Assembly (NCBI GenBank): GCA_020851785.1
Contig: JADZCC010000034.1
Coordinates: 81,258 to 145,257 of the forward strand
Source of the DNA: Anaerolineales bacterium
Lineage (GTDB): Bacteria > Chloroflexota > Anaerolineae > Anaerolineales > Villigracilaceae
DNA length: 64,000 nucleotides
Reading direction: 5' to 3'
A program made the position numbers and the translations under genes. Under the pieces are notes generated by a model. That model was given only the letters and a program-made list of their open reading frames with translations. It was not told the DNA's origin and searched no databases. This document shows, one piece after another, positions 4,224 to 11,695 of the stretch. The first letter of the stretch is position 1. Each line of letters starts with the position of its first letter.

Positions 4224-4778
4224 TTATCTCGCCCGCAGTTTGTGAAAGTCACGAATCAGCGTGCTATCTGTCAGCGCCTCTTCAAATTGAGCCGGCCAAT
4301 TCTCGATATAAACATCGTCTAAAGCATCCCCCTGCTTTTGAACGACAGATTCAACATCGCCTCGATCTTTGGCGCGGGTGGAGAGCATTTTGTAAATAAT
4401 CAGATCTTCGGCTGTGCACACGCAAATATTTTTTTCCAAAGTGAAGTCAATATCACGCGCCCGTTTAATGGCAGTCTCATCAAAGATCGTATCCGCCAGC
4501 ATCACGTCAATGCGAACGCCGTTAGAATCTCGAAAAAATGCCAACCCAAGGCGACGAAACGATTCATCTGAATTATCTTGAAGCGGCGTAAACGCATTCA
4601 ACAACGTTAACAATTGACTGCGATTTTCACGCGAGACCAAGACCTTCATATCAATGTCGCGTGTGAGGCGTGGCTCGCCCCAGATCGCAACAGCAATCCC
4701 ACCAATGGCCATGACAGGTACGCCTTCCTTTTTCAGGAAGTTTTGAAAGGCGATCACGGAATCAATCAGGTCGTTCAT
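4224..4778 (-). CDS. AbiEii-like nucleotidyltransferase (toxin-like)
   Basis: This 184-residue protein has the polymerase-beta-type nucleotidyltransferase signature GGIAVAIWG...RLTRDIDMKV near residues 26-47, with the DxD pair, and a third acidic position in GVRIDVML. The layout fits the AbiEii/AbiGii and DUF6036-type family, whose better known members are toxins of type IV abortive-infection systems that modify tRNA; that activity is an inference here. The start overlaps the stop of the small upstream gene (ATGA, 4 nt), showing translational coupling. It lies 48 nt upstream of glyS on the same strand, within the proposed insertion between the two glyS 5' copies. Confidence 0.8.
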   Translation of the reverse strand: MNDLIDSVIAFQNFLKKEGVPVMAIGGIAVAIWGEPRLTRDIDMKVLVSRENRSQLLTLLNAFTPLQDNSDESFRRLGLAFFRDSNGVRIDVMLADTIFDETAIKRARDIDFTLEKNICVCTAEDLIIYKMLSTRAKDRGDVESVVQKQGDALDDVYIENWPAQFEEALTDSTLIRDFHKLRAR

Positions 4779-4996
4779 GGCTTATGGGCGTTCAGAATTG
4801 CCAACCGCGTCTGGAGTTGAATCAGCGCCTGATTGCGTTCTTCCCGAAACAAGGTCTCGGTCTCCTGCAACCATGGCTCGAATTCCACCATCAACGCAAA
4901 AAACTGCCGCACACCTTCCAGCGGGGATAAGGAGCGCAACAAGCGTGTCTCTTCGGCATAAATAGCGTCCCAATTTATGGCAGTATTCTTTAACAT
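4775..4996 (-). CDS. Small partner of the nucleotidyltransferase, unknown family
   Basis: The track ORF runs from a TTG at 5053 (92 residues), but a -10 box lies inside that stretch, so the ATG at 4996 (73 residues) is preferred. The protein is acidic, apparently all-helical, with no recognised motif (segments AEETRLLRSLSPLEG and ETETLFREERNQAL). The 4-nt overlap with the nucleotidyltransferase makes it the likely cognate partner, possibly an antitoxin or substrate adaptor. It does not resemble the winged-helix AbiEi antitoxin, so the pair is not a standard AbiE system. Confidence 0.65.
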   Translation of the reverse strand: MLKNTAINWDAIYAEETRLLRSLSPLEGVRQFFALMVEFEPWLQETETLFREERNQALIQLQTRLAILNAHKP

Positions 4997-5026
4997 CTTT
5001 TCAATTCCATCCGGCGTGTTTAGTTG

Positions 5027-5053
5027 ATTATACCCGTTCCTGTTAAACGCCAA
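5027..5053 (-). promoter_or_regulatory. Candidate promoter of the nucleotidyltransferase cassette
   Basis: TTGGCG, 15 nt, then TATAAT on the minus strand, about 30 nt before the ATG at 4996. The spacing is short, so strength is uncertain. Confidence 0.45.
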
Positions 5054-5065
5054 CGCAGGATATAG

Positions 5066-5137
5066 TCAAGCGCATCCGTGCGACGCCCAGAAGTCTTGCA
5101 GTTTGAGGATGATCTCTTGAAAAGATGATTTTGGCAT
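5066..5137 (-). pseudogene. Remnant of a second glyS 5' end
   Basis: Reading from the ATG at 5137 gives MPKSSFQEIILKLQDFWASHGC followed by A and a stop. This matches the GlyQS N-terminus ([21 protein letters not shown]) and breaks off right after the shared GGATGC. The DNA is similar but diverged, so it is not a recent exact duplication. It probably marks the original glyS start, with the cassette at 4.2-5.0 kb inserted downstream of it. Confidence 0.8.
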
Positions 5138-5276: not shown

Positions 5277-6848
5277 CTACGGGGACGAGCGGGCGCAACG
5301 GAAGCCAACGACAGTGCTTGCATACGAAAGACCGCTACTAAGGCGGTTAATCATACGTATATCGCTAACATCACTCCATGAGCCGCCGCGTAAGATGCGA
5401 AATGTACCAGAACCCGGACCTTGTGGGTTTAAAACAGGCGAGTTTTGATAATATTTTTCAGCATACCAATCCGCCACCCATTCCCAAACATTGCCCGCCA
5501 TATTGTACATGCCATACGGGCTTTTTCCGCTTTCATAACCCGTCACTTCGGTTGTATCACCTATGCAACTGGCATAGTTAGCCTGACCACAAGCGCTATT
5601 TTCACCCCACGGATACGTCCTGCCGTCCGTGCCTCGGGCGGCTTTTTCCCATTGAGCTTCGGTGGGTAAACTGGCATCGCGCCACTTGCAGTATGCATTG
5701 GCTTGGTTCCAGTCCACGTTGACTACCGGGTAATTATCAAACTGTGAATTACCGTAATAACTATCACGAGTGGAGGAGCCTATATCTTGTGGCGGGGTAC
5801 AGCCGCCTGTCTTCACACAGGCTTTGTAAGCGGCGTTGGTCACTTCGTAGATATCCATGTAGAAGGCGTCGAGATATACCAAGTGAAGCGGTTTTTCATC
5901 TTCTTCGCTGTTATTGCTTCCCATTGCAAATTGGCCTGCCGGTACAAGTCCCATTTTTATGTCTTTGTCATCGGTGATTTCAGCAGGCAACGATGTAGGC
6001 ACAGGTGTTTGAGAAGCGGGTATTTGAGTCTCTGTAGGCGTAGGTGAAAATATCTTTATAAACCAAGGCGAACTGATCAGCGCGGCAAGGATTGTGCCGA
6101 CCAGTCCGATCAACGCGACGATGACGGCAGTCTTCGGCTTGCGGGGTGGGTTTGTTTTCTTCGGTTCAGGTTTGGCGGGCTGAGGTTTTTCAGGCGCTGA
6201 CTTTTCCTGATTGCCAAAATTGATTACGTTGCCGCTACCTGAAACGATCACGCTCCCTTTTACATCGCCGCCAACATCCACGTTATCTGGCGCGGGAGTG
6301 GGATGCGTTTGAGGTTTAGGTTTTACTTCTTTTGGTTCGGGGAATTTCTTTTCTTCAACAACCGGCTTAATCTCAATAGTTGTTTCACCCGCTTTGGGCA
6401 ATTGCACTGTGGCGCGTTCCAACTGCGAGGCGCGCAGTTTCAGAGACTGCATCAGTTTGGTATAGCCCGCCTTTTCATACAAATCCACGGCGTGATATTT
6501 TTTCAAACTAAAGGGCAGTTCGCATTCCTCGAGCCGCGCAGGGATGATGAAGATGCGTCCATCCGGCATTTCCATCGCTTTGTCTAAAGCGAACTTGATT
6601 TCCTTTTGGACGTAGCCCTCTTTATCCACCGAGTTTGGGCTTAGACAAATGATGATTGCGTCCGAGGAATGCAGAGCCTTCGGGATTTCCACTTCCCAAT
6701 TCTGCCCGGGAATCAAATCCTCCGCATCCAGCCAGGGTTGGACGCCGCGCCGCTTCAAGGCGCGGTACAACTCCCGCACCTTCGGCTTGTCGGCGGAGGC
6801 GTGGCAAAGGAAGACTTTGAGGGGGCGTTTTTGGTCAGCGGACTTCAT
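5277..6848 (-). CDS. TIR - transmembrane - FGE-fold receptor-like protein
   Basis: 523 residues. Residues 8-145 form a TIR domain (KVFLCHASADK, PWLDAEDLIPGQNWEVEI, IIICLSPNSVDKEGYVQKEI); Glu83 sits where bacterial TIR NADases have their catalytic glutamate. A Pro/Lys-rich linker with GGDVKGSVIVSGSGNVINFG (about 193-212) leads to one membrane helix (about 241-258), preceded by positive charges, so the N-terminus is predicted inside. Residues about 296-523 are a formylglycine-generating-enzyme (SUMF1) fold ending in RGGSW...GFRCAR. The two catalytic cysteines found after RGGSW in true FGEs are absent, so it is probably a binding domain and not a sulfatase activator. TIR-FGE fusions are known among bacterial conflict proteins; an immune or cell-death role is inferred. 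Confidence 0.88.
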   Translation of the reverse strand: MKSADQKRPLKVFLCHASADKPKVRELYRALKRRGVQPWLDAEDLIPGQNWEVEIPKALHSSDAIIICLSPNSVDKEGYVQKEIKFALDKAMEMPDGRIFIIPARLEECELPFSLKKYHAVDLYEKAGYTKLMQSLKLRASQLERATVQLPKAGETTIEIKPVVEEKKFPEPKEVKPKPQTHPTPAPDNVDVGGDVKGSVIVSGSGNVINFGNQEKSAPEKPQPAKPEPKKTNPPRKPKTAVIVALIGLVGTILAALISSPWFIKIFSPTPTETQIPASQTPVPTSLPAEITDDKDIKMGLVPAGQFAMGSNNSEEDEKPLHLVYLDAFYMDIYEVTNAAYKACVKTGGCTPPQDIGSSTRDSYYGNSQFDNYPVVNVDWNQANAYCKWRDASLPTEAQWEKAARGTDGRTYPWGENSACGQANYASCIGDTTEVTGYESGKSPYGMYNMAGNVWEWVADWYAEKYYQNSPVLNPQGPGSGTFRILRGGSWSDVSDIRMINRLSSGLSYASTVVGFRCARSSP

Positions 6849-8371: not shown

Positions 8372-9142
8372 ATGGGCCTCGCCGACCTTCACATCCACAG
8401 CATCTACTCCCCAGATGCCACCATCACCATCCGCGCCATCCTTAAGCAAGCCTCAGATGTCCAACTCAACGTCATCGCCATTACCGATCACGACGAAATT
8501 CGCGGCGCGCTCGAAGCCGCCAAAATCGCGCACGAATACGACCTGGAAGTCGTCCCCGGCGCAGAAATCTCCACCAAAGACGGTCACCTCGTCGCCTTGT
8601 TCATCCACGAAGTTCCGCCCGCCGGTCGTTCCCTCATTGAAACGCTGATCGCGATTGGCGAACAAGGCGGGCTGGCCATTGCGCCGCACCCTTTCAACGG
8701 CCTGCCCGGAAGCCTGAGCATGGAAGCCGTCGTTGGAGCGCTCACCCACCCCTATGCCAAAACCGTCCTCAAAGGCATGGAGACTCACAACATGAGCACG
8801 CACAGCTTTAACAGCGCCGCGCAAAAACTTGCCATCTATCTGCCGCTGGCCAAAATCGCCTCCAGCGACGCGCACCTCTACTGGGCCATCGGCGCCGGGC
8901 GCACACAATTTGAAGGCGACACCGCGCAAGACTTACGGTACGCCATCGAAAACAACGCCACCATGCCCATCCCCTACGAGGAAGAACTCTCCGCCCGGGC
9001 CGTCTTCAGTTGGATGCGCAGAATCACCCTCCGTCAGTTTGGCTACGCCTCCGATTCGCCCTCCGCCTCACAACCGATCAACACGCAAAAAATCGCCAGA
9101 ACGCTCATCCGCAAAATTAAAAGAAAAGAACCGGCTGAATAA
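8372..9142 (+). CDS. PHP-domain metal-dependent phosphoesterase
   Basis: 256 residues. Metal-binding motifs of the polymerase and histidinol-phosphatase (PHP) superfamily are in order: DLHIHSIYSPD at the N-terminus, AITDHDEIRGA near residue 37, GAEIST near 63, APHPFNG near 108 and SSDAHLYW near 165. Relatives include nucleoside 3',5'-bisphosphate phosphatases and other small phosphoesterases; the substrate is not evident. The stop codon lies inside the loop of the following terminator. Confidence 0.88.
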   Translation: MGLADLHIHSIYSPDATITIRAILKQASDVQLNVIAITDHDEIRGALEAAKIAHEYDLEVVPGAEISTKDGHLVALFIHEVPPAGRSLIETLIAIGEQGGLAIAPHPFNGLPGSLSMEAVVGALTHPYAKTVLKGMETHNMSTHSFNSAAQKLAIYLPLAKIASSDAHLYWAIGAGRTQFEGDTAQDLRYAIENNATMPIPYEEELSARAVFSWMRRITLRQFGYASDSPSASQPINTQKIARTLIRKIKRKEPAE

Positions 9143-9151
9143 GCGGTTCTT
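9126..9151. terminator. Shared terminator between the PHP gene and recO
   Basis: AAGAACCG/CGGTTCTT, followed by a T-run on the plus strand and preceded by A's for the minus strand, lies between convergent genes. The PHP stop codon is in its loop. Confidence 0.8.
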
Positions 9152-9153
9152 TT

Positions 9154-9912
9154 TTAGACTTTGACTTGCTTGATGAAATTCGGCGTATTGAGTTGACGTT
9201 CGAGCAGATGCGTAAAATAAGATTGCATTAACTGTTCCGCCTCTTTCTGGACCTCGAAGTTGGGCCGCGCGCGAGCGGCCTCGCGGTACGTTGACCTTTG
9301 GAAGTGCCGCAAATATTTAAGCGCTTCCAGCGAAATCCTCAACAGGTTGGGAACGCCATCCCCGCAACGCGAGCAAATGGCGCCGCCCGCCGTAAACGAA
9401 AAGAACTGGTCTTCGGGCAAAATCTCCCGCCCACAATTGGCGCACGCAAACAACTGCGGACGAAACCCAACCGCGTCCAACAGGCGCATTTCATAATAGC
9501 GCAGAGCCAGCCAACTATCGGATTCTTTTTCCAGACGGCTCAATGTATCGGTGAGCAATTTGAAAACGGTCGGATTGCCGCCCTCCTCTTCGTAAGAAAA
9601 ACGGAGCAGTAACTCGGCCGCATAGGCCGCGTAACTAATCTTTGCCAAATCGTCATGTAAAGCCAAAAAGGCGTTTACCGTTTCCACCTGCGTCACTATC
9701 AACAAATCCCGCCCCTTGGCCAACTGCACGCTGATCTGCGTAAATGGCTGTAAATGCCCCGCCTTGCGCGAAGTAACTTTGCGCGCGCCCTTCGCCAACG
9801 CGCGAAGCAGGCCTTGCTCGCGGGTATATAACGTCAGCAGACGGTCGGCCTCGCCCCAATCGCCATGCCGCAACACCACCGCCGAAGCGCGAAACGAGCG
9901 AAAGTCAGCCAT
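9154..9912 (-). CDS. recO: DNA repair protein RecO
   Basis: 252 residues: N-terminal OB fold (ASAVVLRHGDWGEADRLLTLYT), helical middle, and a zinc site CANC...CSRC at about 175-200. RecO loads RecA with RecF/RecR during recombinational repair. The start overlaps the end of cdd by 8 nt, so the two are translationally coupled. Confidence 0.95.
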   Translation of the reverse strand: MADFRSFRASAVVLRHGDWGEADRLLTLYTREQGLLRALAKGARKVTSRKAGHLQPFTQISVQLAKGRDLLIVTQVETVNAFLALHDDLAKISYAAYAAELLLRFSYEEEGGNPTVFKLLTDTLSRLEKESDSWLALRYYEMRLLDAVGFRPQLFACANCGREILPEDQFFSFTAGGAICSRCGDGVPNLLRISLEALKYLRHFQRSTYREAARARPNFEVQKEAEQLMQSYFTHLLERQLNTPNFIKQVKV

Positions 9913-10312
9913 TTTGCAAATGCCTGGGCGTGAACGCCTCAGGCAATAGTTCTGCGACGGTCAGCGCTTTGTGCAAATGACCTTCGCCATCCGCCAGCAA
10001 AACCAGCGTCTCCAGTCCAAATTCAGCCATCACCTGGCGGCATCCGCCACAGGGCGAGCCGCCGTTGTTGGTGACCACGGCAATGATCTCAAATTCCGTT
10101 TCGCCTTCGGAAACCGCCTTAAAGATCGCCACCCGTTCGGCGCACATCGTTTGCGGGTAGGCCGCGTTTTCAACGTTCACGCCGGTATATAAACGTCCAC
10201 TTTTGGTGCGTAAAGCCGCGCCCACTGGATAATTGGAATACGGCACATACGCGCGGCGGCGGGCTTCGTTCGCCAAATCAACCAGGGCTTGTTGTTCTTC
10301 TTGTTTAATCAT
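9905..10312 (-). CDS. cdd: Cytidine deaminase
   Basis: 135 residues of the homotetrameric type. The zinc and catalytic motifs CAERVAIF and PCGGCRQVM are intact, and NVENAAYPQTMCAE matches the nucleoside-binding segment. It converts cytidine and deoxycytidine to uridine and deoxyuridine in pyrimidine salvage. The SD is weak (AGGCGA). It sits between glmU (18 nt upstream) and recO, with which it overlaps. Confidence 0.95.
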   Translation of the reverse strand: MIKQEEQQALVDLANEARRRAYVPYSNYPVGAALRTKSGRLYTGVNVENAAYPQTMCAERVAIFKAVSEGETEFEIIAVVTNNGGSPCGGCRQVMAEFGLETLVLLADGEGHLHKALTVAELLPEAFTPRHLQNG

Positions 10313-10330: not shown

Positions 10331-11695
10331 TTATTTCTGCGGTTTGCGGGTCAGCTTTTTGATCGCGCGCGCGGGCATCCCCACCACCAGCGTATCCTCG
10401 GCCACGTCTTTGGTCACAATCGCGCCCGCGCCAGTTCTGGCGCCCGCGCCAATTTTTAGCGGAGCAACCAGCATCGTATCCGATCCGATGAAAACATCGG
10501 CGCCGATTTCCGTTGCGTGTTTCTTCTCGCCGTCGTAATTGCAAGTGATCGTCCCGGCGCCGATGTTGGTATTTGCGCCAATTTGGGCGTTGCCAATGTA
10601 AGAGAAATGCCCCATCTTCACGCCATCCGCCAGATGGGAATCTTTCACTTCGCCAAAGTTGCCCATGTGAACGTGATTGCCCAAATGCGCGCCCTTCCGC
10701 AAACGCGCAAACGGGCCCATGTCCACATCGTCTTCCAAAACGGCGCCCTCCAAAACCGAAGCCAACACTTTACAGCTGTCGCCAATTTGCGTATCGCGGA
10801 TGATGGTATTGGGGCCAAGTAAATTGCCTTCGCCAATGTTGGTTTTTCCATGCAAATACGTGTTCGGCATCACAACCGTATCTTTTCCAATCTTCACGCC
10901 TGCTTCAATATAAACCGAAGCGGGGTCGGGCATGGTGACGCCATTGAGCAAATGCTCGCAGTTAATGCGCCGCCGCATGGCAACTTCGACTTCCGCCAGA
11001 TGGATGCGTGTGTTCACGCCAATCGTCTCTTCCCGATCGTCCATCGGCATGGCCAGCACGGGTAAGCCATCCTGCACGGCCAGTTCGATTGCATCCGTGA
11101 GATAGTATTCGCCTTTTTTCGGGTTTTTAGGAATACGTTTCAACGCGCCCCACAACCATTTGGCGTCAAAGCAATAGCCGCCTACGTTCAATTCTTTGAT
11201 TTGTAACTGCTCCGGCGTGGCGCCATATTCCTCAACGATGGCCGCCACCGTTCCATCGGCCTTGCGGATAATGCGCCCAAAGCCGCGCGGGTCATCCGCC
11301 ACCACCGTCAGCATGGAGATTGGGCCCAAATTTTTCTTTTGCGTCTCTACCAGTTTTTGCAACGTCTCGCCGCGCAAGAGCGGCATATCGCCATAACAAA
11401 CGACGACCAAATCCGTTTTTCCATTTAAAACAGGTTCAGCCTGCATTACGGCGTGACCCGTCCCCAACTGCGGCTCTTGTAGCACGGTTTGCGCCGAAGT
11501 CTCAAGATATTCCGTCACCGCTTCAGCCCCATGCCCCACCACGACAATTGGCTTCTCGGTAGTGGCGGCTTGAATCGCATTCAGGGCATGCCAGAGCATG
11601 GGCTTGCCCGCCACTGCATGTAAGACCTTCGGCAGGTTGGATTTCATGCGCGTGCCTTGTCCGGCGGCCAGTAAAATCGCTGTCACTTTCATCAT
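10331..11695 (-). CDS. glmU: Bifunctional UDP-GlcNAc pyrophosphorylase / GlcN-1-P acetyltransferase
   Basis: About 454 residues. The N-terminal uridylyltransferase has LAAGQGTRMKSNLPKVLH. The C-terminal left-handed beta helix carries the acetyltransferase site region (RLRKGAHLGNHVHMGNFGEVK, IGAGTITCNYDGEKKHAT). It makes UDP-N-acetylglucosamine for peptidoglycan and surface glycans. Two adjacent ATG codons compete; the second (11692, MKVTAILLA) fits the family start and the AGGTGA spacing a little better. The gene heads a possible glmU-cdd-recO operon behind the tRNA-Gln terminator. Confidence 0.96.
   Translation of the reverse strand: MMKVTAILLAAGQGTRMKSNLPKVLHAVAGKPMLWHALNAIQAATTEKPIVVVGHGAEAVTEYLETSAQTVLQEPQLGTGHAVMQAEPVLNGKTDLVVVCYGDMPLLRGETLQKLVETQKKNLGPISMLTVVADDPRGFGRIIRKADGTVAAIVEEYGATPEQLQIKELNVGGYCFDAKWLWGALKRIPKNPKKGEYYLTDAIELAVQDGLPVLAMPMDDREETIGVNTRIHLAEVEVAMRRRINCEHLLNGVTMPDPASVYIEAGVKIGKDTVVMPNTYLHGKTNIGEGNLLGPNTIIRDTQIGDSCKVLASVLEGAVLEDDVDMGPFARLRKGAHLGNHVHMGNFGEVKDSHLADGVKMGHFSYIGNAQIGANTNIGAGTITCNYDGEKKHATEIGADVFIGSDTMLVAPLKIGAGARTGAGAIVTKDVAEDTLVVGMPARAIKKLTRKPQK

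Follow-up and report, generated by a model that had tools for sequence, protein, structure and literature searches.

A predicted single-pass TIR receptor with a non-catalytic FGE-like outside domain, and its modular, DGR-diversified relatives in Anaerolineae

The window, a stretch of 64,000 nucleotides from an Anaerolineales bacterium, carries on its minus strand a gene with an ATG start that encodes a protein of 523 residues (5277..6848; all features given below lie on this strand). Pfam searches, hydropathy analysis and AlphaFold2 (AF2) modelling define the order TIR domain, linker, membrane helix, Pro/Ser/Thr linker and FGE-like domain with a C-type-lectin fold (TIR-TM-FGE). Two further elements lie between this gene and glyS. 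A DUF6036-like nucleotidyltransferase gene with a small partner ORF (4224..5053, by Pfam) is flanked on one side by glyS and on the other by a second, truncated copy of the glyS 5' end (5066..5137; 42 bp at 5072-5113 with 40/42 identity). This copy separates the pair from the receptor gene and resembles the scar of an insertion or duplication. At 10 related loci (L019, L021, L031, L023, L102, L116, L117, L118, L119 and L171; L173 and L174 repeat L119 and L102) glyS is preceded at 158-464 bp, on its own strand, by a TIR/FGE receptor that is complete, split or shortened. Since the pair is flanked by glyS and a truncated glyS start where the related loci have the receptor directly upstream, it was probably inserted between receptor and glyS and would stand outside the receptor system. 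Neighbourhoods of related loci do not share the pair, and relatives of the pair are found where the receptor is missing; no PADLOC model matched it. The AbiEii toxin model gave 16.2 bits against a cut-off of 22.5, DUF6036 scored at its cut-off and the partner ORF was unmatched, so that the pair was not assigned to the AbiEii type. As related loci do not share it, the pair was ruled out as an operon partner, and the 'small defence patch' that the sequence-only reading had seen in receptor and pair was not supported.

The TIR domain (residues 12-130; 6459..6815) matches Pfam TIR_2 with 98.4 bits (cut-off 28) and is modelled by AF2 with a pLDDT of 85.5. In Foldseek searches, the modelled fold matched the TIR structures of MyD88, the Toll-related receptor TRR-2, SPARTA and AbTir. 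Residue Glu83 (6600..6602, in GYVQKEIKFAL) is invariant across the 17/17 aligned TIR domains and aligns with the Glu conserved in AbTir and PdTIR. The Glu at this position of TIR domains is the NADase catalytic residue, as established for SARM1 and AbTir. These alignments bear out the earlier assignment of Glu83 to the NADase position. When the receptor was searched as a whole, PADLOC returned no match to a complete system, only matches to the TIR part and weak partial matches, and Pfam detected no EAD domain in the protein.

The linker that follows contains a motif, DNVDVGGDVKGSVIVSGSGNVINFGN (residues 188-213; 6210..6287), predicted to be cytoplasmic. It is common to L018/L128, L021 and a TIR-less neighbour protein in L020/L098, and is rare elsewhere; considered as an amyloid-type signalling motif, it proved rare and no matching literature was found. 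The gene for the TIR-less protein (L020:6950-7978, plus strand), which shares the linker motif GDVKGSVIVSGSGNVIN with the window protein, precedes the L020 TIR-TM-FGE gene by 8 bp. The TIR-less protein has a linker and membrane helix of the same kind, joined to a different ectodomain, and is possibly a co-receptor. In the window protein, a basic stretch (residues 229-239; 6132..6164) precedes the single membrane helix (residues 240-258; 6075..6131), which was found by hydropathy (Kyte-Doolittle 2.67) and is also present in the AF2 model, as the sequence-only reading had noted. The 15 residues before the helix contain 6 K/R, compared to 1 after it. The helix is followed by a stalk (residues 259-290; 5979..6074) that consists of Pro, Ser and Thr for 53%.

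The FGE-like domain (residues 299-520; 5289..5954), which is predicted to be exported, matches Pfam FGE-sulfatase with 182.4 bits (cut-off 23.3), and by fold it resembles FGE, PvdO and TvpA (2y3c), a variable protein of a diversity-generating retroelement (DGR). The full-length AF2 model is weak in the linkers and in the segment equivalent to the DGR variable region (VR; pLDDT 69.5). True FGEs carry C....C after RGGSY, for instance RGGSYLCHDSYC in 6muj. In the window protein, RGGSW is followed by RGGSWSDVSDIRM, which contains no Cys, and by comparison with 6muj both copper-binding cysteines are absent; the domain thus has the FGE fold and lacks the complete FGE active site, as had been claimed. 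C387 and C518, on the other hand, align with the GFRC disulfide pair of human FGE. The VR-equivalent segment lies between RGGSW and GFRC at the C-terminal end of the C-type-lectin-fold domain (residues 492-514; 5307..5375), at the VR position of L201, L202, L040 and L255. It is the most variable 23-residue stretch of the FGE domain in the family: the window protein and that of L022 are 13% identical in this segment compared to 73% outside. Loss of the cysteines is therefore a family trait, because the stretch concerned is hypervariable across the whole FGE-like family considered here. Foldseek and phmmer also match the domain to PvdO, CalU17, ToxD and EgtB, which would fit another kind of catalyst, a relative of PvdO or EgtB, rather than a binding domain. 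However, the FGE cysteines are absent, and a segment that is the most variable part of the domain and a DGR VR in relatives is ill suited to hold a conserved active site, so that we regard a catalytic role of this kind as improbable.

The side of the membrane on which the domains lie was predicted from two features of the family. Firstly, K/R residues are more numerous before the helix than after it in 24/27 TIR-TM-FGE proteins; this bias of the same sign predicts that the TIR domain is inside. Secondly, a cysteine pair of the FGE domain, C344/C350 (5799..5819), tracks membrane location in counts over the family: it is present in 26/27 TIR-TM-FGE and 23/26 kinase-TM-FGE proteins, and in none of the proteins without a helix (0/14 TIR-FGE, 0/5 kinase-FGE and 0/18 long proteins; 0/37 in total). 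Paired cysteines are confined to proteins with a helix or a signal peptide. On an FGE tree built without the C344/C350 columns, the location label changes 5 times and there are about 4 independent pairs, of which the informative ones all behave as expected; because independent events are few (about 4; sign test, p 0.25), the link between cysteines and location is not conclusive. In one kinase-TM-FGE relative, the outside part carries a LysM domain. Export of the FGE domain is thus supported at the level of sequence, and so is the earlier proposal of a one-protein, Toll-like receptor with a cytoplasmic TIR and an exported FGE domain. Both domains could instead be cytoplasmic, with the helix serving as an anchor only or being a hairpin insertion, and soluble TIR-FGE and STAND-like FGE proteins do exist in the class; given the positive-inside bias, the single helix, the P/S/T stalk and the distribution of paired cysteines, we consider this highly improbable.

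The same domain order was searched for elsewhere. TIR-TM-FGE recurs in 27 non-redundant domains from Anaerolineae-class genomes, which indicates that the window gene results neither from a chance fusion nor from misassembly. The FGE tree shows 22 changes of effector label, and in it the FGE domains of the window protein and of L024, a kinase-TM-FGE protein, are sisters (SH-aLRT 96). The window genome itself also encodes a kinase-TM-FGE protein (L008), lipoprotein-like FGE proteins and one long soluble FGE protein. Exchange is also seen on the other side of the helix. At the same glyS locus, L021 encodes the same TIR-linker-helix (TIR 89% identical) joined to an unrelated outside domain, which matches no Pfam model and, read by eye, appears propeller-like. 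In other related TIR-helix proteins the ectodomain is a CBM9 (L151) or gives a weak LamG-like match (L130). Judged from these sequences, the Anaerolineae family is modular: effectors (TIR, kinase and others) are exchanged on a single ectodomain, and the TIR-helix module is in turn found with different ectodomains.

Other domain arrangements were also seen. A TIR-TM protein at L057 (7892-10456) has two tandem FGE domains outside, and the linker between them resembles an SH3-type segment. At L159 (1035-2477), TIR is joined to a multi-pass, cytochrome-c-assembly-like membrane domain (Pfam PF01578), an odd combination. L132, L133 and L268 encode soluble EAD7-TIR-FGE proteins, in which a conflict-system adaptor domain is placed directly on the TIR-FGE fusion; L268 is the same G314 gene as L133, and is a DGR target (21 adenine and 0 other mismatches).

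DGRs act by reverse transcription of an A-rich template, in the course of which adenines are replaced by any base. In genomes of the same genus as the window genome, reverse transcriptases (RTs) are found directly downstream of TIR-TM-FGE genes. We scanned for pairs of template repeat (TR) and variable repeat (VR), tolerating mismatches at template adenines and penalising other mismatches. In five TIR-TM-FGE genes, the numbers of adenine and other mismatches were 17/0 (L201), 14/0 (L202), 15/0 (L040), 20/0 (L255) and 17/1 (L267), that is 83 adenine mismatches combined compared to 1 other, and the VR is in each case the RGGSW/F...GFRC segment; the template of L201 reads RGGSWNNNNNNTRSSNRNNNTPDNINNNIGFRCAR. 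Over 60 TR/VR pairs, 1009 A-to-N and 30 other changes were counted, a ratio that is partly inherent in the scan because other mismatches are penalised; chance would not be expected to produce long near-perfect pairs with adenine-only changes. The sequence-only reading had missed this diversification of the same FGE segment in relatives, as well as the exchange of effectors and ectodomains.

The DGR-RT motif (I/L)GxxxSQ is present as IGNLTSQ in the RTs beside L201, L203, L205, L040 and L065 and as LGNLTSQ beside L028, and YVDD/YADD is found in those beside L201 and L040, as well as L203 and L065. The RT beside L202 matches RVT_1 with one internal stop. Of the 396 genomes of the class, 85 hold relatives of the L201 RT, and a TR/VR pair was obtained at 45/60 loci around L201-type RTs. 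The VRs that fall in ORFs correspond to FGE-like domains, except at L286 where the ORF is not settled. Soluble TIR-FGE and kinase-TM-FGE proteins are among the DGR targets; long proteins of other types are the most frequent ones. An apparent TR/VR pair at L021 turned out to be a duplicated TIR gene start and was rejected as a DGR. A soluble TIR-FGE gene at L160 (715-1047; G206:C2) has its own TR/VR pair (12/0) and no RT within the stretch examined; the same genome also holds the L018 TIR-TM-FGE gene with its RT, and an RT possibly acts in trans on L160. In the isolate Levilinea saccharolytica, L028 (6735-10454) contains a kinase-TM-FGE gene with a VR (8698-8807), an RT (8908-9969) and a TR (10345-10454), and further kinase-TM-FGE paralogs adjoin this locus.

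The nearest TIR relative of the window protein, that of L018 (TIR 92% identical), is followed 86 bp downstream by an RT that is 80% identical to the L201 RT; no template was found at L018 because the contig ends soon after the RT. In the window genome, searches yielded neither an RVT_1 match nor a sequence matching the L201 RT at E<=1e-30, and a TR search with an A-tolerant pattern allowing <=3 mismatches returned only the receptor gene itself. The window copy is thus not an active DGR target in this genome, unless the assembly of 114 contigs misses a DGR. Codon usage was tried as a fossil signature of DGR activity: NNY codons are more frequent in the VR-equivalent segment of the window gene (0.83 vs 0.59, nominal p 0.04), but other FGE domains show the same bias (0.65 vs 0.52) and it was not counted as evidence. 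The window copy is best regarded as an orphan of the family. As it keeps the hypervariable segment and no DGR is detectable in the genome, it is probably fixed, either a former DGR product or a cousin of the process. Alternatively, it could be a decaying relic of a DGR target that is out of use, as might be suggested by the missing RT and TR matches and by the split or truncated versions found upstream of glyS at L102, L031 and L118. However, the ORF of the window gene is intact, its invariant residues are kept, and the position upstream of glyS is held by a receptor across about 10 related loci; decay is for these reasons an unlikely explanation.

Several parts of this picture are already known separately, namely DGR-diversified sensors, bacterial TIR effectors and some periplasmic DGR targets. 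FGE/CLec domains have been described as invader sensors that DGRs diversify, and their partners include STAND, MoxR and TIR effectors; some targets are predicted to be periplasmic (Kaur et al., PMC7159879; TRADD-N, PMC8195603; a 2024 DGR study, PMC10907252). The DGR sensors of multicellular bacteria resemble the window receptor in having a C-terminal FGE-type CLec domain, a VR at its end and an N-terminal effector or NTPase, and in relatives of the window receptor a DGR RT is likewise nearby. They differ in that they are mostly of STAND, MoxR or vWA type and mostly cytoplasmic, whereas the window receptor has a stand-alone TIR, one helix and an FGE domain predicted to be exported, and its copy is without a DGR. 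In cyanobacteria, one study describes effector-CLec fusions under DGR control with kinase, caspase and TIR-like N-termini, mostly cytosolic and dominated by kinases, and in the text consulted no TIR-TM-FGE receptor is spelled out (PMC7517822). A literature search that missed most subscription papers gave nothing on receptors with TIR plus FGE-sulfatase beyond these DGR and conflict-system papers, and no report of a stand-alone TIR with one helix and an exported, DGR-controlled FGE domain.

Animal Toll-like and Toll-related receptors share with the window protein a cytoplasmic TIR, one membrane helix and an outside ligand domain. In contrast to Toll-like receptors, which have a leucine-rich-repeat ectodomain and a C-terminal TIR, the window protein has its TIR at the N-terminus, an opposite chain order, and an FGE/lectin ectodomain without leucine-rich repeats; the likeness is one of plan and need not reflect descent. 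With the bacterial TIR NADases AbTir, PdTIR and SPARTA TIR it shares the fold and the Glu at the catalytic position, but it is fused to an outside sensor and has no Argonaute, SAVED or STAND partner. With FGE/SUMF1 it shares the fold and C387/C518 and differs by the two missing copper-binding cysteines; the EAD that marks EAD-linked conflict systems is absent from it and present in the soluble sisters L132 and L133.

Combined, these results make it probable that the window gene encodes a single-pass, non-catalytic receptor with TIR inside and FGE outside, activated through its TIR by ligand and built of swappable modules, with a binding face that DGRs rewrite in relatives. The N-terminus would be inside and the TIR in the cytoplasm, carried by a flexible linker; a single helix would span the membrane, and the stalk would hold the non-catalytic FGE/C-type-lectin-fold domain outside the cell. 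A ligand may bind the loop-rich face between RGGSW and GFRC and cause the receptors to cluster, and clustering would bring TIRs together and switch on their activity, either NAD cleavage or a TIR-made signal. Phages or rivals at the surface of the cell would be the most plausible targets of the response. We infer an immune function, and likewise the ligand, the NADase activity and the role in phage defence.

The main rival is regulatory sensing, because the same ectodomain often sits on kinases. The receptor could respond to ordinary cues such as wall fragments, kin or nutrients, with the TIR serving as a scaffold for signalling instead of a suicide effector, and without a defence role. In the class, the exported FGE domain is mostly found on Ser/Thr kinases, for example L008 of the window genome and L028 of Levilinea, one kinase-TM-FGE protein has LysM outside, and cyanobacterial DGR-kinase fusions have been interpreted as regulatory tuning (PMC7517822). 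However, the NADase Glu is invariant in the 17/17 aligned TIRs, the soluble sisters are EAD7-TIR-FGE proteins with a conflict-system adaptor, and DGR sensors of multicellular bacteria have been proposed to be antigen sensors (PMC10907252). We consider regulatory sensing possible, if somewhat unlikely, and retain the TIR-activated receptor as the preferred reading. The chances are about even that the Anaerolineae family as a whole consists of Toll-like membrane receptors with a TIR inside and an exchangeable outside domain whose binding face retroelements actively hypermutate; such self-diversifying surface receptors of adaptive type would feed signalling of innate type, and the window gene would be a fixed member.

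The Levilinea saccharolytica isolate, in which the kinase version has RT, TR and VR in one locus, provides a cultured model where the question of the ligand is testable, and TIR versions lend themselves to expression in laboratory E. coli. If the receptor works as proposed, it would be a bacterial surface receptor that unites Toll-type signalling with programmed diversification.
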